Assembly (NCBI RefSeq): GCF_001895925.1
Contig: NZ_MPPI01000036.1
Span: 1-51,666, forward strand
Length of the DNA stretch: 51,666 nucleotides
Direction: 5' to 3'
DNA from: Phormidesmis priestleyi ULC007
GTDB lineage: Bacteria > Cyanobacteriota > Cyanobacteriia > Leptolyngbyales > Leptolyngbyaceae
The first letter of the stretch is position 1, and each line of letters opens with the position of its first letter. A program made the position numbers and the translations under genes. This document shows, in pieces, positions 11,171 to 51,056 of this stretch. The notes under the pieces were generated by a model, which saw only the letters and a list, made by a program, of their open reading frames with translations, ran no database searches and was not told the origin of the DNA.

Positions 11171-11941
11171 ATGAAGCTATCTCTAAAAACTCTAGGAGTT
11201 GCCCCCAACGCTTGGGCAGTCGATGCAGCCACCGCCGATATTACCCGACCGCCTTTAGAGCCAAAGCCGATCGCGATCGCCACAGACACCAAAACGCTGC
11301 GCCTTGATCTAGCCAAAGCCGCAATTCTGGTGATCGATATGCAGAACGATTTTTGTCATGCGGATGGCTGGTTGGCGCACATTGGGGTCGATGTCACCCC
11401 AGCCAGAACTCCGATCGCGCCACTCCAACGATTCTTACCAGGGCTGCGAAGTCAGCAAGTGCCTGTAATTTGGGTCAACTGGGGCAATCGTCCTGATTTG
11501 CTCAACATTAGTGCGGCGGCTCTTCACGTCTACAATCCCACTGGGTCGGGCATTGGGTTGGGTGATCCATTACCTCGCAATCAAGCGCCAGTGCTGATGG
11601 CAGGAAGTTGGGGAGCCGCTGTCGTCGATGAGCTAACCCAAGCGCCCGAAGATGTCTGTGTGAATAAGTATCGTATGAGTGGCTTTTGGGACACGCCACT
11701 CGATAGCATTCTCCGCAACTTGGGCAAAACGACGCTCTTTTTTGCAGGGGTAAATGCTGATCAGTGCGTCATGACAACCTTACAAGACGCGAACTTTTTA
11801 GGCTATGACTGTTGTTTAATCAAAGACTGCACTGCCACGACTTCGCCTGATTTTTGTTGGCAAGCTACCTTGTATAACGTCAAACAATGCTTTGGGTTTG
11901 TCACCGAATCTGAGGCGATTTTGAGTGCGATCGCAAAATAG
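11171..11941 (+). CDS. Isochorismatase-like cysteine hydrolase
   Basis: The 256-residue product is an alpha/beta hydrolase of the isochorismatase/N-carbamoylsarcosine amidase superfamily. The catalytic triad is visible: D56 in VIDMQNDF, K166 in VNKYRMSGFW and C199 in GVNADQCVMTT, which points to amide or ureido hydrolysis (biuret hydrolase- or RutB-like) rather than isochorismatase proper. An N-terminal extension of about 45 residues precedes the core. It is followed by a cupin and a CocE/NonD hydrolase on the same strand with small gaps, so a small catabolic operon is likely. The substrate cannot be read from the sequence. Confidence 0.85.
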   Translation: MKLSLKTLGVAPNAWAVDAATADITRPPLEPKPIAIATDTKTLRLDLAKAAILVIDMQNDFCHADGWLAHIGVDVTPARTPIAPLQRFLPGLRSQQVPVIWVNWGNRPDLLNISAAALHVYNPTGSGIGLGDPLPRNQAPVLMAGSWGAAVVDELTQAPEDVCVNKYRMSGFWDTPLDSILRNLGKTTLFFAGVNADQCVMTTLQDANFLGYDCCLIKDCTATTSPDFCWQATLYNVKQCFGFVTESEAILSAIAK

Positions 11942-41466: not shown

Positions 41467-43119
41467 CTATTTCAACTGCCCTGATCGAATGATTCCCCAA
41501 ATCAGCCACAGTCCCAGAAAACTCGCGGCTGCAAACAAAACATCACTCACCCAGTAGACTTGACTCGATTGAGTATTGGCAGAAATAATGGCTGCTCCAA
41601 TAATTAGCGACCCGACCACAACGCTGAACGAAAGCCGATTTGCAGACGTGTCTAGGGCCCGGCGAACTGGCTCTAGCTCTCTGACTGACAGATTCCACTG
41701 CAACGTTTCTGACGTGACGCGATCGAGCAACATCTCGACCTGACGCGGAGACTGCAACGAGAGGTTTTTGACATCCAGCACGGTTCGCAGCAGTGCCGCT
41801 AACGGGGCTTCTCCGACGATTTGACGTTGAAACACTTCCGTCATCATCGGACGAATTTTATTGGGAATATTGAAGTTAGGATCAAGGGTGCGGGCAATGC
41901 CTTCTAAGTTGGCGATCGCTTTTGCACACAATCCTAAATTGCCAGGAATGCGAATTTTGTTACTTCGCGCTATCTGTAAGACTTCGTAAACGAGCTTGCT
42001 AAAATTCACCTGCGAAATATTGAGGCTATAGTAGCGCCGCAGCAGTTGATCAAACTCGGTTTCGAGCTTGATGCGATTGACCGGGTGAGCCGGGGGAGCC
42101 AGTTGTAATACTAATTGAGTGCAACGTTTAGCATCGAGGTTGACGATCGACAAAATCAATTCCAGCAAAATTTGCTGAGTGCGTGGGTCGAGTCGCCCCA
42201 CCATGCCGCAGTCAAAGAGCGCAATCCGTCCATCTCGCAGATAAAACAAATTGCCGGGGTGCGGATCGGCATGAAAAAATCCGTCGAGACAAATCTGCTG
42301 AAAAAAGGCTTTTAACAACAGCGTTGAAATTTCTTCGCGTTCTCGATCGGCATTGCCATCAAACGCCGGATTTGCAAAGTTAGCGGCTAAAAGCGGCACT
42401 CCGTCGAGCCACTCCATCACCAGCAGTTTCTCAGTGGTCAGATCCCAATTAATTTCGGGCACCGTTAGGCGATTTGGCTCGATCCAGCGAGAGGCTTGCA
42501 GATTGCGCCGCAGCAAATCGGTGTTGTGAGCTTCTTGAGTAAAATCGAGTTCGGCTCGCAGCGCTTGCGTAAATTCTTCGGCGATCGAGACAATATCGTA
42601 ATATTGTCCAAAATCGGTTTGGGAAACGAGCCTGGCAATCAAGCGGATCAGGGCGATGTCTTGCTCAATCACAATCTCTAAGCCCGGACGCTGAACCTTG
42701 AGCGCCACATCTCGACCGTCTTTGAGCGTAGCACGGTGAGTTTGAGCGATCGACCCTGCCGCGACGGGTCGATAATTGACTGAGGCAAAGGTTTCTTCGA
42801 GCGATTGGTGCAACTGTTGCCGAATCACAATTTCAACTTCTAACCAATCAACGGGGGGCACCTCGGCTTGCAGGGCTGAAAGCGTGTCGATATATTCGGC
42901 GGGCAGCAGGTCAGGACGGGTGCTGAGGAGTTGTCCTAGTTTGACATAGACGGGTCCAAGCTCGACTAAGATGTTTCGCAAAACAGCAGGGGGCGGCAGT
43001 TTGGGTTCATCAACTTTGCCTCCGGTCAACAGCCGTCTCATATAGTCCCAGCCGTTGCGTAGCACGACTTCGACAATTTCGCCTTGTCGAGAGCTAGTTT
43101 GGACGATGCGTGAAAACAT
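41467..43119 (-). CDS. ABC1/AarF/UbiB-family atypical kinase
   Basis: The 550-residue protein shows the ADCK/UbiB signature: LGPVYVKLGQLLSTRPDLLP (KxGQ motif near residue 62), PVAAGSIAQTHRATLKDGRDVALKVQRPG (Ala-rich loop and Lys), VMEWLDGVPL, and FFHADPHPGNLF...IALFDCGMVGRL (catalytic and metal-binding Asp residues). Two hydrophobic helices close the protein (LSFSVVVGSLIIGAAII; VLFAAASFLGLWLIWGII). These proteins are ATPase/kinase-like and support isoprenoid quinone or prenyl-lipid metabolism at membranes, including plastoquinone or tocopherol in cyanobacteria and plants. Confidence 0.93.
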   Translation of the reverse strand: MFSRIVQTSSRQGEIVEVVLRNGWDYMRRLLTGGKVDEPKLPPPAVLRNILVELGPVYVKLGQLLSTRPDLLPAEYIDTLSALQAEVPPVDWLEVEIVIRQQLHQSLEETFASVNYRPVAAGSIAQTHRATLKDGRDVALKVQRPGLEIVIEQDIALIRLIARLVSQTDFGQYYDIVSIAEEFTQALRAELDFTQEAHNTDLLRRNLQASRWIEPNRLTVPEINWDLTTEKLLVMEWLDGVPLLAANFANPAFDGNADREREEISTLLLKAFFQQICLDGFFHADPHPGNLFYLRDGRIALFDCGMVGRLDPRTQQILLELILSIVNLDAKRCTQLVLQLAPPAHPVNRIKLETEFDQLLRRYYSLNISQVNFSKLVYEVLQIARSNKIRIPGNLGLCAKAIANLEGIARTLDPNFNIPNKIRPMMTEVFQRQIVGEAPLAALLRTVLDVKNLSLQSPRQVEMLLDRVTSETLQWNLSVRELEPVRRALDTSANRLSFSVVVGSLIIGAAIISANTQSSQVYWVSDVLFAAASFLGLWLIWGIIRSGQLK

Positions 43120-43444
43120 AGAAAAATAATTAAAACTTTAATTGAGCAATTCGTTAGGAATCAGTCTTCTCAAACCTAGCGTATGTAACGATTTTCAGCT
43201 ATCTAACTTTTGAGACAGAGCAGGATAACTACTGGTTGCTTTTCTCATGGGGGTGTTCTCGATCGTTCATCTCTGCATTATCGATGAATTTGGTGTTGCA
43301 AGTAAGAGTTTAAAGGAAGGTAGGAAATTGATAAAGCGATCGCCATCTGCTACTTTCTGAGCAGGTCATATCTCCTTACCTTCTTGTTCTAAAATCTTTT
43401 ATTTGTTAAAAACTTTTACTCTACTCGCCTTCCATGATGACTCA

Positions 43445-45190
43445 ATGAACCAGCAGCCAATCTCCTTCCATCATTCTTGGCGATCGCTTTCCTATCCCAT
43501 CCGGCGATGCATCCGCGCAGCAGCCTTGATCTGTTTGATTGCAGCTTTGATCGTCACAACTTCGCTTAGCGTAGTCTCGCAAACGCCACCTGTTACGACA
43601 GGTAAAGCTGCTAGCGCAGCAGTGAAATTAGATAACCAGCCTGTCTTTGTGATTCGCGACAAATCTCAGTTTGCCTCACTTGAACAACGGGCGCAGCGAG
43701 TTTCCGATCGATTGCAGCGTTTTGCTGATAACCAGTCAATTCCACTAGAGGCGATCGCAACTGCCTCGGTAGAAGGAAATTCTGTGATCTACGCTGAGGA
43801 TAATATCTTAGTGACTGTCTCAGCAGCAGATGCAAAAGCAGCAGGGCTATCTCAGCAAGCGTTGACGAATGATTATTCGCAGCACATCCGGCAATCTGTG
43901 AGTCAGTACAGGCAAGAGCGTAGCGCCAGCTACTTGATCCGGGCAGCAATCATTGCTGTAGTTTGCACGATCGCTCTGATTGTGCTGTTGATCATTCTCA
44001 ATAATGCAGTTCCTCATTTTCATCGCTGGTTAGATAGACAGCGAAACCGCCGGGTTCCGAGCTTGCAGATTCAAAACTTTGAGCTAATGTCCTCAGATCA
44101 ACTATCAGATTTGCTGCTGGATCTGACCAGTCTGCTGCGGATAGGACTAATTCTAACGATTCTCTACGTTTATTTCTCGCTGATTCTCAACCTGTTTCCT
44201 CAAACTCGACCGCTTGCCAGCCACCTGTTTAGCTATGTCCGCAATTTAGGCGTGACGGTTTGGACTGCGTTTGTCAATTATTTGCCCAGCCTGCTGATGG
44301 TGGGGCTGATTGTGATTGCAACTTATTACCTGCTGCGTTTTCTCAAACGCGTTTTTGACGGGATCAGCCGCCGTGCCTTTTCAATTCGCGGGTTTTATCC
44401 TGAGTGGGGAGAACCCACTTACCGTCTGTTGTCTTACTTAATTATCGCGCTGGCGGTCATTGTCGCCTTCCCTTTCCTGCCTGGATCGAGATCACCTGCT
44501 TTTCAAGGGATCTCCCTATTTTTGGGAGCGCTCGTTTCGCTGGGGGCAACCGCAGCCGTTGCCAATATTGTGTCTGGCTTCATTCTGGTGTATACACGAG
44601 CATTTCAACTGGGCGATCGCATCCAAATCGGAGGCGTTTTGGGAGATGTTGAGGAAAAACTGGCACTTGTGACTCGAATTCGTACCTTAAACAATGAACT
44701 CGTGACGATTCCCAATGCTGCGCTCATGGCAGCCAATATTACCAACTATAGTGCTTTAGTGAGAGACAGCAATACGCCCCTGATTTTGCACACAACTGTT
44801 ACGTTAGGATACGACGTTCCCTGGCGTAGGGTTCACCAAATTTTAGTTGAAGCTGCCCTTGCTACGGCGGATATTCTGCCAAACCCGTCTCCCTTTGTGC
44901 TGCAAACTGCTCTTACCGATTTCTACGTCAACTATGAATTGAGAGCTCATACCGTTCATCCTGAAAAGATGCCCGCCATCTATTCCACGCTTCATCAAAA
45001 CATTCAAGATAAGTTTAACGAAGCAGAGATTGAAATCTGTTCGCCACACTACTCAGCGCTTCGGGATGGCAATACGACGACAATTCCAGGCAGTTATCTA
45101 CCCCAAGACTATACTCCACCCAGGTTTCGAGTTGACTCGATCGATACCTCTGCCAAACTGGAAGATCATTCCGGCGATCGCCAAGTTTAG
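43445..45190 (+). CDS. MscS-family mechanosensitive channel
   Basis: ATG 43445 is used; the frame upstream to 43403 begins at a TTG with weak support. The 581-residue protein has an N-terminal hydrophobic signal (LICLIAALIVTTSLSVVS), a periplasmic domain (about 50-155), four or more membrane helices, then the MscS core. The pore helix is AFQGISLFLGALVSLGATAAVANIVSGFILVYTR (split near residue 380), followed by FQLGDRIQIGGVLGDVEE (beta domain). It opens under membrane tension to release solutes in osmotic downshock. The upstream 280-bp gap has no recognised site. Confidence 0.92.
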   Translation: MNQQPISFHHSWRSLSYPIRRCIRAAALICLIAALIVTTSLSVVSQTPPVTTGKAASAAVKLDNQPVFVIRDKSQFASLEQRAQRVSDRLQRFADNQSIPLEAIATASVEGNSVIYAEDNILVTVSAADAKAAGLSQQALTNDYSQHIRQSVSQYRQERSASYLIRAAIIAVVCTIALIVLLIILNNAVPHFHRWLDRQRNRRVPSLQIQNFELMSSDQLSDLLLDLTSLLRIGLILTILYVYFSLILNLFPQTRPLASHLFSYVRNLGVTVWTAFVNYLPSLLMVGLIVIATYYLLRFLKRVFDGISRRAFSIRGFYPEWGEPTYRLLSYLIIALAVIVAFPFLPGSRSPAFQGISLFLGALVSLGATAAVANIVSGFILVYTRAFQLGDRIQIGGVLGDVEEKLALVTRIRTLNNELVTIPNAALMAANITNYSALVRDSNTPLILHTTVTLGYDVPWRRVHQILVEAALATADILPNPSPFVLQTALTDFYVNYELRAHTVHPEKMPAIYSTLHQNIQDKFNEAEIEICSPHYSALRDGNTTTIPGSYLPQDYTPPRFRVDSIDTSAKLEDHSGDRQV

Positions 45191-45281
45191 CTAGTGCAAT
45201 TTTAGGAAACCTGCTTTGCAAGCGAATCGAGTAAGGGACAATCAAAATACTGACAAATTCGGACTTTCAGTTCTGGTGCAG

Positions 45282-45722
45282 TCAATTTGTGTGCAGATCC
45301 AGTGCCCAATTCGGATACTGTTCACTCAAGCAAATCAATCGGTTGCGTTGATGCTTTTTTAGCGCGTATTGCTCATCGGGTGAGACAATCCAAGCCTTGC
45401 CAAAGTTGCGTGGACTCTGATGCAATAGGGCGCGTAGTTGTTCTTGCTTTGCAGAATTGAACATTGGTTCCACCGTTGTCGGACAGGTCGATTGGGCTTG
45501 CAAACACTGGAGTCCGTCACGCTCAACCGCTCGAATCGTATTTCTCACCGTTTGCACACTACAGCCGAGTTGAGTGGCGATCTGCTTGGGGCGTTGATGC
45601 TTGGCACTTGAGAGCAGAATTTGACAGCGCCGTAGGATGAAGGCATCTCTGGAGCGTAATCCTTATTTGAGTGCCGTTCGTTCAATTGGACTCAAGGGGC
45701 AGACAAATAGAGGAGCTTTCAT
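45282..45722 (-). pseudogene. IS630-family transposase, degenerate
   Basis: From ATG 45722 the frame reads MKAPLFVCPLSPIERTALK, then a TAA, then GLRSRDAFILRRCQILLSS, a helix-turn-helix (PKQIATQLGCSVQTVRNTIR) and HQSPRNFGK. It then jumps to IVSPDEQYALKKHQRNRL, skipping part of the family sequence, and ends at PNWALDLHTN before the catalytic domain. A premature stop, an internal deletion and a 3' truncation make it inactive. It lies 137 bp downstream of the NOS gene and on the same strand. Confidence 0.8.
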
Positions 45723-45795
45723 GATGCTTCTGAAAGATACAAGGGGGCTTCCCAAATTCACAATCAGAGTGAACTACTTCTGTCGAACTGACATT

Positions 45796-45851
45796 AAAAA
45801 AACAGAGCCAGGAAGCCTAATCATAGTCTCTTGGCTCTCTCAGATTAGGCT
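45796..45851 (-). terminator. Rho-independent terminator of the NOS gene with an overlapping alternative stem
   Basis: Reading the minus strand after the NOS stop, AGAGCCA (45838-45832) pairs with TGGCTCT (45810-45804), followed by G and seven T (45802-45796). This is a standard intrinsic terminator, although the loop is long (21 bases). A second stem, AGCCTAATC (45851-45843) with GATTAGGCT (45822-45814), overlaps it and cannot form at the same time. The arrangement could simply be imperfect termination or could allow regulated readthrough. Confidence 0.65.
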
Positions 45852-45859
45852 GAATTTGT

Positions 45860-48800
45860 CTAAACCATTAATGGTTGGCTTTCCTCGGTGGCTACTGATT
45901 CATCCGTAGGTTGTTTTACTCGCTCCAGCCACTTCTCAGCCTTCGAGTAGTTGTCCTTTTGCACCTGTTGAATCGCTTGCTTGAAGTTGAGCTGCACGCC
46001 CCACACATCGGTATGAAAACGGTGTTCTTTCTTCATCTGATCGAAAAACGCGGCGGCTTCAACGTGGGAGAGTTGACCGATCGTTTTAGCGATCGTCATA
46101 AACCCTTCAAACACATCGTCTGCCATCTTCGCGTCACCACAGACATAGTAATGACACTGAGGATGACTTAGCGATCGCCAAAGTGCTTGGGCGTTCTCTT
46201 GCATCAAGCCTTGAACATAGACTTTCTGGTCTGTTAAACGAGAGAAGGCAACTTGTAGATCAGTCAACACGCCTTGATTTTGCCAAGTAATCAGTTGGTC
46301 GCCGTAGAGGAAATCAGTATGATTGCGACAGCCAAAGTAGAGGCAAGCCTCCCCTAAGGTTGTTCCCTGCTTTTGCAGCGCTTCCCGATATTGTAGGAAG
46401 GCAATCAGCGGTGATACTCCAGTGCCGGGGCCGACCATCAGCATCGGGGCTTGAGCATCGATCGGGGGACGGAATCCAGAGGTGCGAACCCCAATGCGAA
46501 CCTGAGAGCCAAGTTGCAGTCCAGACAGATAGTTAGAGCAAAGCCCCTGTCTCGTCTTGTTCGCATCCGTTTTGATTTGTAGGACTCCTACCGTAATTTG
46601 AATGTGCTGAGGATGCAGCAACGGACAGGAGGAAATGGAGTAGAGGCGCGGCTTTTGCTTGGGTAACAGTTCTAGCAAAACGTCTAACGAGATCGGAGCC
46701 GAAGGAAACTGATCAAACAGATCGGCAACGCTCATGCAGGTGTCGGTAATCGTCTTCCTGAGCGCCACACTGTCAGAATGATCTTCGCCCTGCCGCAAAA
46801 TCTCTAGCCAGGTTTCTAAGCGATGCTTTTCTTGCGGATTTTGAGCAACGGAGTATAGGTACGCCAACAACTCGTTAAAGGGTTCGCGTAATGCCAGATC
46901 GAGTTCTTCAGAAAGTAGCTGAACAACCGTAGTCGGAACGGCAACCGGAGGCTGATCGTCTGTGGTCTGTCCATCGGGCGTGACGTACTGAGCTGTAAAG
47001 TAGGTGTTTGGAGAAACTCCAACTCGCGCACAGAGGCGATCGACCAGTTCCGGTGGATTGCAGGGATAAACGGCAACGTGATCGCCCGTTTCATACTGCA
47101 AGCTAGTATCGGCAATGTCGAAAGCGATGTAACGAGTAGAACGGCTGCCCGGAATCACTTCTTGCAGCAATTCGTCGTTGGCAATCACGGGAACGGCAAT
47201 GCCACGATCGCCTGAAATAGCAGCAAGGGGCGGCAGATTCGTCTCGTCTAGGAAGGTCACGGCGAGTTTGGGAGCCGTTGCGCTTGCCGAATCGCCAGCG
47301 GTTGCATCTTCACCCAACACGCGAGAGATCAAGCCCAACCATTGCTTGAAGGTGTCTGCTTGACCTTTAATCTCATCCCCTTTATGCAAAGGAGCCGCGC
47401 GATTCGCTCCCGCTTTTGCTAAAGCTTTATCTACAGAAGTTCCCGCCGCGCAGAACTGCTCATACACGGTGCTGCCGATGCCCAATACAGAATAGTTCAA
47501 GCCACCGAGCGACCCCGCAGGCTGCTGTTTCAACCATTGCAAGAATCGCTTACCGTTGCTGGGCATTTCGCCATTGCCAAACGTCGAGGTGACAATGAGC
47601 AGCAGCTTCTCACTCGCTAGGGTTTCAACCGGGTATTCGTCGAGTGCCATCACTTTCGGGCGGAATCGCTGTAACTGCCGTGCGGCTTTACGAGCAAACC
47701 CCTCTGCGGTTCCCGTTTCAGAGGCGTAGAGAATCAAAATCCGATCTTGTCTGTCCCCGTCTTCATCCGCAACCGCCGTTAGTTTGTCCAAGTCGATGCC
47801 GTCTTCGATCGCCCACTGATCAGCGGCATGGTGATAGGCAGGCTCGAGGTAAAAATCGCGCATCTGGTGATGCCAAACCGGACAGGTACTGCCGCCTGCT
47901 GCCGGAACCACCCAACCGGAGTCCCCAGGGCATTCCCGCCCTGCTTTTTTCTCCCGCAAGTCGTGGGTGAGGAATTGACGCGATGCCGTTTGGTGATCGA
48001 CCATTGTCACTTTCGCTTTCTGGAAGGAGTGGAGAATGGCCACATTGAGTTCTAAAGCCACCCGATCGCGCCACAAAGTCTGCTCAGAACTGGTGTCTAA
48101 CTTCAGAACTTGGGCAATCTCCTCCATTTTGTTGTAGCGAGACTCATCGAGGAAATCTCGCATGATTTCGGTGTCCATATACCAGCCGTTGAAAGGCATA
48201 CAGCCATACTGGATGCCGCCAATATGCACCGAGAAATTGCTGATCGCAGGAATGGCATACCAGCGCATCCCAATCTCTTTAACTTCTGGAACGGTAGGAT
48301 GCTCAATATGCACTTCCAGCACTTCTTCTGGCTGCCAGTGATACATTTTTGGCTCCTGACCCGGAACCTCGATCACCAGAGGCAGAATGTCATAGGCAGT
48401 GCGGGGTTCTGACGGTTGCCAGCCAAATTTGATAATGGCATCGGTCAGACCCAGATTTGCCGCATCGCCCATGATGCTGCCATCAGGCATTCTATACGCC
48501 GCATAGCGATAGAGTTGCGAATTCCAGAAGCGCGAACCCCAGCGTTCTTTGGGCTGCTTGGGGCGGAAGACGGTCATCGTAATCTGCAAGTTGCCGCCGT
48601 TGGTTGCAAACTTGACGTGTTCCTGACATTCGCGGAACATCTCATCGGGGTCAGTAATGTGGCGACGATCGCGCACCACCATATTGTTCCAGGAAATTCG
48701 CCCGACACACTTGGAGGCATTGCGCCACGCAACCTGAGTGCCATACGCCAGTTCTTCATAAGTGTGGGCGTAGGTTCCCGTCGCGTTGACTTCCTCACGA

Positions 48801-49459
48801 ATCTCTTTCCAGCGGCGCTCTTTGTCCTCCAGTTCCCATGCCTGTTCTGACGAAATCAGATCAAGGAACTGCTTGGCTTTTTTGAGAATGCGCTCTTGAT
48901 TGAGCATCGGTAGCTTAATCACGCCGACGACGCGATCCATCAGCGTTTGCCATCCGTGCCGTAACTCTGGGGTAAAGTCTGTCAGGTACTTCTCAAATAG
49001 GGTAAATAGCGTATCTGTAATGGCAGGATAAGCACACGTCGGAACTTCCGCAAAACTGTGAACCTGTCCTAAAAAGCGCAGTTCTTGCAACATCTCCTCA
49101 CTGCTGCCGCTCCGCAGACAGCGCACCAAAAATTCTAGCGCTTGAAACAGGTGCATCGACAGATGATCCATATCTGCCCGTCCAAAAATCGGCAACACGG
49201 AGGGATAATTCTCAAACAGGATTTGGTAAAACTCCATCCCCATTTGCTGCTTGTTTTGACCAAACACCTCCCAGCAAGCTGCCATCTCTTGCAGCATCTC
49301 TGGCGGCAGAGCATCATTGTATCGACGTACTGCCGCAGTCATCGGCAGAATAATATGAGTATCAAAGAATTTGTAGAGGGCAGAGTTTGCGCCTTTTTGC
49401 AGATCCTCGCGATCGTACTCCTCCAGATACGGAATCGATGGCAGCATCCACATCCACAC
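45860..49459 (-). CDS. Nitric oxide synthase, second globin-like, oxygenase and reductase part
   Basis: NOS makes NO and citrulline from Arg. From GTG 49459 the 1,199-residue part contains a globin domain (about 50-180) with the proximal His in [12 protein letters not shown] (H134). The NOS oxygenase domain follows: [14 protein letters not shown] with haem-ligand C251, and [14 protein letters not shown] with the substrate Glu. A flavodoxin FMN domain ([26 protein letters not shown]), an FAD domain (RLYSISSCP) and an NADPH domain ([27 protein letters not shown]) complete it. Globin-NOS-reductase proteins of about 1,470 residues are known from Synechococcus PCC 7335 (SyNOS). It is in the same reading frame as the upstream piece, separated by one TGA and five sense codons. 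AAGG lies 8 bases before the GTG, so separate initiation is possible. Confidence 0.9.
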
Positions 49460-49474
49460 CTGCCGCGCCTTGAT

Positions 49475-49477
49475 TCA
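49475..49477 (-). other. In-frame TGA within the NOS gene
   Basis: The codons read CGT CCG CAG CAC TGA ATC AAG GCG CGG CAG GTG TGG ATG, that is R-P-Q-H[12 protein letters not shown]. Related globin helices have an aromatic residue at this point (G-x-x-P-x-H-W/F/Y), so a TGG to TGA change is the simplest reading. The frame is open on both sides and neither half shows decay, so the stop is either very recent, a sequencing error, or suppressed or bypassed in vivo. Confidence 0.85.
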
Positions 49478-50293
49478 GTGCTGCGGACGTAGCCCGATTC
49501 CTGCAAAAAACTTGCCGTAATCCTCAACCGAATCCAGTCCATCGCCTTTTTCAGGCGGGATGCCCATCAAAGGTTCACCGACGATATTTTGAGTTTCGGG
49601 CTGAAGCTGGTGGATCGCGCAGTCAAACAACTCATAGAAGAAGTCGTTCATGCTATCGATCGCTTCCCCAAACAGATATTCAAGATCTGGCTCTTCTAGC
49701 AACAGCCGCTTCAGAAACGTTTCCATCTCTAGCTCTTTCCACGCCCGTAGCTTGTTCCACACGTCTTTGACGATCACTTCGTCCTGTGCAGTCAGTGGTC
49801 GGGACTGAGGTAGATCAATCTCCACTTTTTCTGCCGTGCCTTTGCGACGACGAAACCCATTCTGCTGACTGAAGACTGCAACCGTGCTGCTGCTGGCTTC
49901 ACTCGTGCTTTCGGTCAACCGGACTTTCAGCTTTAGCTGCGGGGCTTGTTCCCAGGTCGTAATCGGAAACGCTAGATCGGCATTGGAGTCGCCGTTTAAA
50001 GACTCCTGGGTTGTAAAGGTCACGGTGCCCGCATCCTGCCAGGGGTTGCTAATATCGCCTTCCCGATAGCACAGAGTAAGGACGATCGTGCAGTCTCCCT
50101 GATTCTTTAATTCTACTAACCAGCTTGGCTGCATTCGGGAAAATAAATCCTTTTGCAGTAGTGATTCACCTTCCTGGGAGAGAAGCTGCACTCGGCACTT
50201 ATACTTATAATGACTGGAAGCAGGAAACTCAGTAGCAGAGACTTCGGTCAGATGTACAGTTCGCGCACTGTTGAGAATTTGAAGATCAGGCAT
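49475..50293 (-). CDS. Nitric oxide synthase, N-terminal part (beta-rich domain and first globin-like domain)
   Basis: The 272-residue frame starts at ATG 50293 and ends at the TGA. Residues 1 to about 150 form a beta-rich region with no family I can name (YKCRVQLLSQEG; AGTVTFTTQESL; LKLKVRLTES). Residues about 168-272 look like the first part of a globin (LTAQDEVIVKDVWNKL; METFLKRLLLEEPDLEYLFG; DYGKFFAGIGLRPQH), whose G-H helices continue after the TGA. At the F8 position, counted back from G-L-R-P-Q-H, there is a Phe rather than His, so this first globin-like domain probably cannot bind haem in the usual way. The 276-bp upstream region has no clear Shine-Dalgarno site. Confidence 0.8.
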   Translation of the reverse strand: MPDLQILNSARTVHLTEVSATEFPASSHYKYKCRVQLLSQEGESLLQKDLFSRMQPSWLVELKNQGDCTIVLTLCYREGDISNPWQDAGTVTFTTQESLNGDSNADLAFPITTWEQAPQLKLKVRLTESTSEASSSTVAVFSQQNGFRRRKGTAEKVEIDLPQSRPLTAQDEVIVKDVWNKLRAWKELEMETFLKRLLLEEPDLEYLFGEAIDSMNDFFYELFDCAIHQLQPETQNIVGEPLMGIPPEKGDGLDSVEDYGKFFAGIGLRPQH

Positions 50294-50397
50294 CTTGTAA
50301 GTTCAGAAGGAGCAGAGGAACCCGAAAGATTGTGAGATAGACACAAAATGTCTAAGTGTAATCTATCGCAAGTATTAAAACAGTGGGGAAGTTGTTT

Positions 50398-50510
50398 TCA
50401 GTCTTTTCCAAAACCTCCGAGGTTTGCGTAAGGAAATCCATCTTCAAACAAAAATTCTTTGGAGTTTGAAGGACGGTTAGCCGTGCGATCGAGCCACTCC
50501 CAGATCGAAA
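50398..50510 (-). pseudogene. Possible 3' remnant of a gene
   Basis: A minus-strand frame ending at 50398 has a protein-like tail (FSIWEWLDRTANRPSNSKEF, then FEDGFPYANLGGFGKD), while its 5' extension overlaps the next gene on the other strand and reads as noncoding. It may be the end of a lost gene. I do not recognise the family. Confidence 0.25.
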
Positions 50511-50570: not shown

Positions 50571-51056
50571 ATGGGGATGAATCGCTTTTTGAGTGTTGCA
50601 GGAAAGCTAGTAGGTGGGTTGTTTCTATGTGGCGGCGGCACGGTGTCGATCGGGCTGCTGCTAGGTATGGCATTGTGGCATCCGACAGGTTGGGCATTAG
50701 CGGCTCTGTGGATACCAACCGTGATCTTTGGCTTGGCACCCTCCGCAGTGGGCGGGCTTCTTCTCTACGGCAGCGCTAAAGCACATCGTCACGCACTGCG
50801 AGAACGGTTTTTCCAGCTTTTGCAAGTCAATCGCGGACGGATTTCTCTACTCGATTTTGCGACTGCGACTCGGTTAGAACCTGCGATCGCGCGTCGTCAT
50901 CTCGATGATTGGGCAAAAGTCTGCTCTGCCAGCTTTGAGGTGACCGATGGTGGAGACGTTTACTATGTTTTCTCGGCTGACCCGATCGCGCTTCCAGGTG
51001 ATCCAAAAGGGCAGGAGTTTCGTCGGGCAGTTCGTGAGTTTATCCGCTCTTGGTAA
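50571..51056 (+). CDS. Small membrane protein with C-terminal winged-helix-like part
   Basis: The 161-residue protein has two hydrophobic segments near the N-terminus (VGGLFLCGGGTVSIGLLLGMALW; ALWIPTVIFGLAPSAVGGLLLYG, shown as family-like hairpins). A cytoplasmic part of about 90 residues follows with LLQVNRGRISLLDFATATRLEPAIARRHLDDWAKVC, which looks like a winged helix (compare small 'membrane plus wHTH' proteins in cyanobacteria). ATG 50571 and 50577 are both possible starts. The function is unknown. It is divergent from the NOS gene. Confidence 0.7.
   Translation: MGMNRFLSVAGKLVGGLFLCGGGTVSIGLLLGMALWHPTGWALAALWIPTVIFGLAPSAVGGLLLYGSAKAHRHALRERFFQLLQVNRGRISLLDFATATRLEPAIARRHLDDWAKVCSASFEVTDGGDVYYVFSADPIALPGDPKGQEFRRAVREFIRSW

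Follow-up and report, generated by a model that had tools for sequence, protein, structure and literature searches.

What does a single stop codon mean within a gene that otherwise appears conserved over its entire length? This question is raised by a locus of the cyanobacterium Phormidesmis priestleyi ULC007, located on a stretch of 51,666 nt (contig NZ_MPPI01000036.1), which is called the window throughout this text. On its minus strand we find a gene for a globin-nitric oxide synthase (NOS) of the syNOS type, which is interrupted by one in-frame TGA. The initial annotation of this DNA offered four options: a recent nonsense mutation, a base-call error, readthrough of the UGA, or split expression from a GTG shortly after it. 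The first two fit the results presented here best, the other two are unlikely. Most probably the window holds a real and evolutionarily young nonsense allele of an accessory syNOS-type gene. The gene looks like a known enzyme's homologue in disrupted form, an ordinary case and not a new decoding trick.

The interrupted reading frame

The frame runs from an ATG (50293–50291) to a TAG (45862–45860) and comprises 1,477 codons plus the final stop. Its sole break is the TGA at 49477–49475, which is codon 273, with 272 codons before it and 1,204 sense codons after it in the same frame. The coordinates, the common frame and the flanking residues as first annotated (R-P-Q-H before the stop, I-K-A-R-Q after it) agree with the translation of the window. 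In the list of open reading frames (ORFs) the downstream part starts at GTG 49459 and has 1,199 aa. The joined length had been compared with about 1,470 residues for the cyanobacterial enzyme, and syNOS indeed has 1,468 (PMC12922734).

A search against solved structures (PDB 9q05, 9q15) aligned codons 12–272 with residues 17–282 of syNOS (E 4.9e-76) and the downstream 1,199 residues with residues 289–1466 (E 0). Since both parts match one solved protein colinearly, the interrupted frame is not a product of chance. The Pfam modules globin (PF00042, E 3.7e-6), NO_synthase (PF02898, E 5.9e-150), flavodoxin (PF00258), FAD (PF00667) and NAD(P)-binding (PF00175) were all matched, every one of them after the TGA; for the 272 residues before it no Pfam match exceeded the curated cut-off. 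Judged from its sequence, the gene is a syNOS-type NOS with predicted C2, pseudoglobin, globin, oxygenase and reductase modules.

All seven active-site or cofactor positions inspected are kept. In the oxygenase, C529 and E709, which we take to be the heme Cys and the Arg-binding Glu, are the same in 28 of 28 aligned homologues. Phe 263 is Phe in 29 of 29 aligned rows and apparently stands where the pseudoglobin would have its heme-binding His, presumably matching that of flavohemoglobins. In the heme globin the alignment shows the CD1 Phe and the F8 His, F370 and H412 in the naming of PMC6104048.

A 2026 cryo-EM paper (PMC12922734) divides syNOS into C2 (1–134), a heme-free pseudoglobin (179–339), globin (340–473), oxygenase (474–852), flavodoxin (863–1003) and FNR (1017–1468). 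By alignment to these borders, the TGA corresponds to W283 of syNOS and falls within the heme-free pseudoglobin. The initial annotation had expected a globin helix with a Trp here. The Trp is borne out by the homologues, as described below; the globin needs refining, as the TGA lies in a separate heme-free pseudoglobin and the PF00042 match wholly after it. A syNOS-type globin-NOS is expected to be one uninterrupted polypeptide. Here the frame is broken at codon 273, and we therefore class the gene among the disrupted homologues and do not count it as a functional member of the group.

Conservation of the tryptophan among homologues

Homologues were collected from 386 genomes sampled from the phylum, from named genomes (33 loci) and from 42 genomes of the family at E 1e-40. 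Duplicates were dropped (L003=L038 and L006=L045, with identical match statistics; L065=L056, 100% over 6,594 bases) and 36 distinct loci were kept, namely L004, L005, L007 and L032–L064. Outside this set stand L008–L012, which match at 41–50% in the oxygenase region, and matches to the reductase only. Three of the 36 loci do not cover the site: L049 meets its contig end, and L007 and L063 have lost the region. All 33 distinct loci that cover it carry TGG at the position of codon 273. This includes L058, where a one-base frame shift led a scripted count to GGA although the DNA reads CACTGG. The alignment thus gives Trp as the residue expected at the interrupted position. Homologues naturally divided into two proteins at this place, a case that the initial annotation had raised against its own view, were found in 0 of the 33.

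From these data we propose a nonsense mutation at the Trp codon in the pseudoglobin of a six-domain syNOS-type NOS. Translation should end after the C2 domain, the linker and part of the pseudoglobin, so that no globin, oxygenase or reductase would be made except by trace leakage. The allele would be null or near-null and its product presumably inactive.

Wear of the sequence and the possibility of an error

The statement that there is no decay on either side of the stop stands for the most part. Not only are the seven checked positions kept, but the pairwise ratio of replacement to silent substitution rates (dN/dS) against the nearest homologue, L032, is also low, with 0.125 for codons 1–272 and 0.061 for codons 274–1477. 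The statement needs to be qualified in another respect. A leave-one-out comparison used 29 aligned rows (the window and 28 homologues; L003, L004, L006, L058 and all loci whose match was not almost full-length were excluded). Of 512 columns that are invariant in all the other rows, the window differs at 11, one of which is the stop. The other rows depart at 0 to 11 invariant columns, except L052 with 48. The end branch of the window measures 0.13; for comparison, L056 has 0.12 with 6 departures and L032 has 0.098 with 5. Triplet counts may faintly indicate mildly more replacement changes on the window branch (odds ratios 0.96 to 2.5; p <=0.05 in 12 of 22 overlapping tests). In four of these triplets the outgroup belongs, by the tree, to the group of the sister (L056 with L033 or L034; L033 with L034; L034 with L033), and an unresolved fork underlies the triplets with L036 or L038. 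The pattern fits long purifying selection plus at most a short relaxed period, and it is one that cannot date the stop.

Had the TGA arisen from a base-call, assembly or mixed-culture consensus error, the organism itself would carry the usual Trp codon and its gene would be intact. We consider this possible but rather doubtful. In its favour, the only break is a single-codon difference in a frame conserved on both sides, with the checked active-site and cofactor positions all kept, and the assembly is a draft of 118 contigs. On the other hand, errors of this kind seem to be infrequent here. This is suggested by a scan that used coding bias to look for stops closely flanked by coding sequence on either side and covered 816,035 bases, about a seventh of the genome. 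At its strictest setting (223 of 1,344 test sites recovered) it returned 4 candidates, with the window site as the only TGA. At its loosest (1,169 of 1,344 recovered) it returned 37, most of which, judged by eye, are neighbouring genes with a start few codons on.

Furthermore, unrelated lesions have damaged this gene elsewhere, in the genomes of other organisms. Up to 7 of the 36 homologous loci are affected (L059, L060, L061, L007, L063, L054 and L058), although some of these lesions may be assembly errors themselves. The NOS gene of Chroococcus sp. FPU101 (L059) has an in-frame TAA near 11654, close to the oxygenase-flavodoxin border. That of Nostoc sp. T09 (L060, 2258–6126) changes frame near codon 107 and misses about 195 residues over the flavodoxin; its identity to the intact L032 is 91–96% over two main segments (95.7% for codons 107–826) and 84% in a short N-terminal one. 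Frame changes are found near codon 62 in L061 and near codon 26 in L054, L007 and L063 are remnants, and L058, from a low-coverage bin, has frame changes as well. As a control we took gcvP in 35 of the 36 genomes (without that of L034), and it is clearly broken in one, the genome of L058. The gcvP of G448, partial at a contig end and with two TAA inside the aligned stretch, is not among the clearly broken ones, and those of G426 and G453, each in two pieces within one open frame, were counted as unbroken.

Some of these results weigh against a real and young mutation. The strong purifying selection (dN/dS 0.06–0.13 against L032) together with a single lesion is just as compatible with an error. 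That NOS shows more lesions than gcvP is suggestive only (Fisher p=0.055 for 7/36 vs 1/35, p=0.11 for 6 vs 1). The raised proportion of replacement changes is weak, with p <=0.05 in only 2 of the 8 triplets that have a securely outside outgroup (L048 or L039). Considering both sides, we think that the base is probably real and the nonsense mutation probably young.

Decoding of the UGA

Readthrough would mean that a near-cognate tRNA-Trp decodes the stop at a useful frequency, perhaps regulating the amount of NOS. Since the covering relatives have Trp at the site, Trp inserted at the UGA would yield a normal protein. We nevertheless regard readthrough as very improbable. Infernal found 41 tRNAs in the genome (150 of 297 first-look candidates were scored), and ARAGORN, run on sequence stretches containing all 41 places, also gave 41. 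The only tRNA-Trp found has the anticodon CCA and none of the 41 reads UGA. Two class-I release factors are encoded by unbroken ORFs (403 and 363 aa); by their hallmarks we take them to be RF1 and RF2. TGA terminates 67 of 265 ORFs of at least 300 codons in the scanned bases. Nor is TGA followed by A, as at the window site, unusual as a terminator in this genome, where 19 of the 65 long frames ending in TGA have it. The initial annotation had also asked for other UGA interruptions. The strictest scan gives none besides the window site; at the loosest setting 8 of the 37 candidates have TGA, and L077 11393 remains as the sole further one without a nearby start. Therefore, the TGA of the window looks isolated within the scanned part. 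The stop is conserved in no homologue seen, and no report of UGA readthrough in cyanobacteria appeared among the titles and abstract openings listed by a search largely without subscription papers. Neither the tRNAs and release factors nor the usage of TGA nor the scan yielded anything positive in favour of readthrough.

A genetic code with UGA as Trp was rejected in view of the CCA anticodon of the only tRNA-Trp found, the presence of two release factors and the use of TGA as a stop. Selenocysteine insertion was rejected because the homologues carry a Trp codon (33 of 33) and not one for Cys or selenocysteine; moreover, no tRNA-Sec is among the 41 tRNAs found, a dedicated genome-wide search for it not having been made.

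A restart site and a two-piece enzyme

It is also conceivable that translation terminates at the TGA and reinitiates at GTG 49459, and that the resulting C2-pseudoglobin and globin-oxygenase-reductase fragments reassemble. The in-frame GTG begins 15 nt past the TGA and is preceded, at a distance of 8 nt, by an AAGG (49471–49468). According to PMC12922734, the C2 domain and the pseudoglobin of syNOS make contacts with the remainder of the enzyme. However, the stretch from AAGG to GTG encodes the conserved K-A-R-Q-V. Of the 33 loci that cover the site, all without a stop at it, 15 have the AAGG, 25 the GTG and 11 both. The pair can therefore be present without having evolved for initiation, and provides no evidence of split expression. 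Going by these sequences, it is most plausibly a side effect of the encoded protein sequence. The cut lies within the pseudoglobin and not at a domain border, and, as stated, no homologue is split at this place. In published deletion experiments, syNOS without C2 (179–1468) is reported to have no NOS activity (PMC12922734) and expression of syNOS without its globin failed in E. coli (PMC6104048). The piece beginning at codon 279 is without C2 and most of the pseudoglobin; in view of these deletion results it is unlikely to work as a NOS alone.

We thus give a two-piece enzyme hardly any credence. The same applies to a more elaborate version, in which the split pseudoglobin rejoins and the ratio of the fragments, or slight UGA readthrough, sets the calcium control of NO output; this would be a most improbable arrangement. 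If readthrough or two pieces were true, the locus would be a natural test of the control that C2 and pseudoglobin have over the catalytic core, which the evidence makes unlikely.

Genomic setting of the NOS block

If the gene carries a real nonsense mutation, as we favour, its loss is apparently tolerable, and its setting suggests an accessory gene. Together with an MscS-like gene it sits between an ABC1-kinase gene (41467–43119) and a small conserved gene of 161 aa (50571–51056). In the congener G413 these two flanking genes adjoin. Similarity to the DNA of G413 extends up to window position 43212 (86%) and resumes at 50458 (81%), without a gap in G413. The empty site, on contig C9 near 5888, makes this a clean presence/absence of the block with NOS and the MscS-like gene. 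Among 30 family loci of the 161-aa gene, the window included, the ABC1 gene is adjacent in 10, and in 19 none is found within 1.5 kb on each side. The block is missing at this site from G413 and nine other family genomes. One of the 10 adjacent pairs belongs to G406 (FACHB-63, by L065=L056), a genome that has its NOS elsewhere. Such a NOS occurs in 2 of the 42 family genomes (E 1e-40), and a search with the downstream part as query found no second one in the genome of the window. The simplest account is that the block of about 7.2 kb was gained in the lineage of the window, probably late, rather than lost elsewhere.

The GC content is no marker of the block (0.498 vs 0.482 in the rest of the window). 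Repeats of at least 12 nt gave no convincing end repeat of the block, neither in the direct families seen (20 of the 32) nor in the inverted pairs seen (25 of the 26). Neither of its two large ORFs is a transposase, the small ORFs not having been searched. Plasmid carriage was rejected, the downstream part having no match in a plasmid collection at E 1e-100, and so was a defence system, as three proteins of the window have no PADLOC match at E 0.001. An exact 24-base pattern at the interrupted site has no match in viral contigs.

Table 1. Positions of the features of the NOS locus in the window
Feature	Position	Strand	Remark
syNOS-type globin-nitric oxide synthase gene	45860..50293	-	1,477 codons, one in-frame interruption
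In-frame TGA, codon 273, aligned with syNOS W283	49475..49477	-	TGG in 33/33 covering homologous loci
Upstream part, 272 codons: C2-like domain, linker, part of pseudoglobin	49478..50293	-	borders transferred from PMC12922734 by alignment
C2-like domain	49907..50293	-	approximate border, alignment to syNOS
Pseudoglobin, cut by the TGA	49307..49789	-	approximate borders
Heme globin domain, CD1 Phe and F8 His kept	48905..49306	-	approximate borders
NOS oxygenase domain, PF02898	47770..48904	-	approximate borders
Flavodoxin and FNR-like reductase (PF00258, PF00667, PF00175)	45863..47740	-	approximate border
In-frame GTG, possible restart codon, AAGG 49471-49468 upstream	49457..49459	-	both also in 11/33 uninterrupted homologues
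Block: MscS-like gene and NOS	43213..50457		absent from congener G413, whose flanking genes adjoin
MscS-like mechanosensitive channel gene, inside the block	43403..45190	+	matches below NCBIfam curated cut-offs

Further observations

Some of the homologous NOS globins contain a pair of EF-hands (PF13499) just before the proximal His. This was seen in L043, L045 (of which L006 is a duplicate), L049, L053 and L057, with E 3e-12 to 1e-10 in the four loci scanned and by eye in L049. The position of the proximal His holds N or V in the four aligned EF-hand rows. In L043 the flank of the globin (codons 330–408, insert columns subtracted) is identical to its tree neighbour L039 at 43 of 79 positions and to L045 at 65 of 79, whereas its oxygenase is 92% identical to L039 and 82% to L045. 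This pattern may be a sign of a globin cassette swap between NOS genes. The single paper that a literature search on this listed concerns Placozoa.

Separately, an in-frame TAA near 3865 in L086 separates two stretches of 88 and 114 codons that look coding, and no start codon appears for 12 codons. By eye it is possibly a broken transposase.

Comparison with known systems

No report of an interrupted cyanobacterial NOS was found among the titles and abstract openings listed by literature searches for it, likewise largely without subscription papers. The window adds to the signs that, in many cyanobacteria, enzymes of the syNOS type are accessory, with a patchy occurrence, an apparently late gain here and damage in several lineages. 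This contrasts with inhibitor tests in Synechococcus sp. PCC 7335, which suggest that the enzyme is essential there, according to PMC6104048.

The closest known system is syNOS of this same strain (PDB 9Q05, 9Q06, 9Q0X, 9Q0Y, 9Q15; PMC12922734, PMC6104048), with the same order of modules and nearly the same length. The window keeps the positions checked in its heme globin, oxygenase and reductase, but where the window has its stop, syNOS continues unbroken with Trp 283. By tree path the NOS of Nostoc sp. 106C (L032) is nearest to the window, and it is intact. The NOS of Nostoc sp. T09 reaches an identity of about 85% with that of the window over codons 107–825, but is itself broken in a different way. 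In general, ordinary bacterial nonsense alleles and young pseudogenes likewise show one stop in an accessory gene that is conserved in all other respects, and the case described here, if the base is real, would differ from them only in the size and interest of the enzyme.

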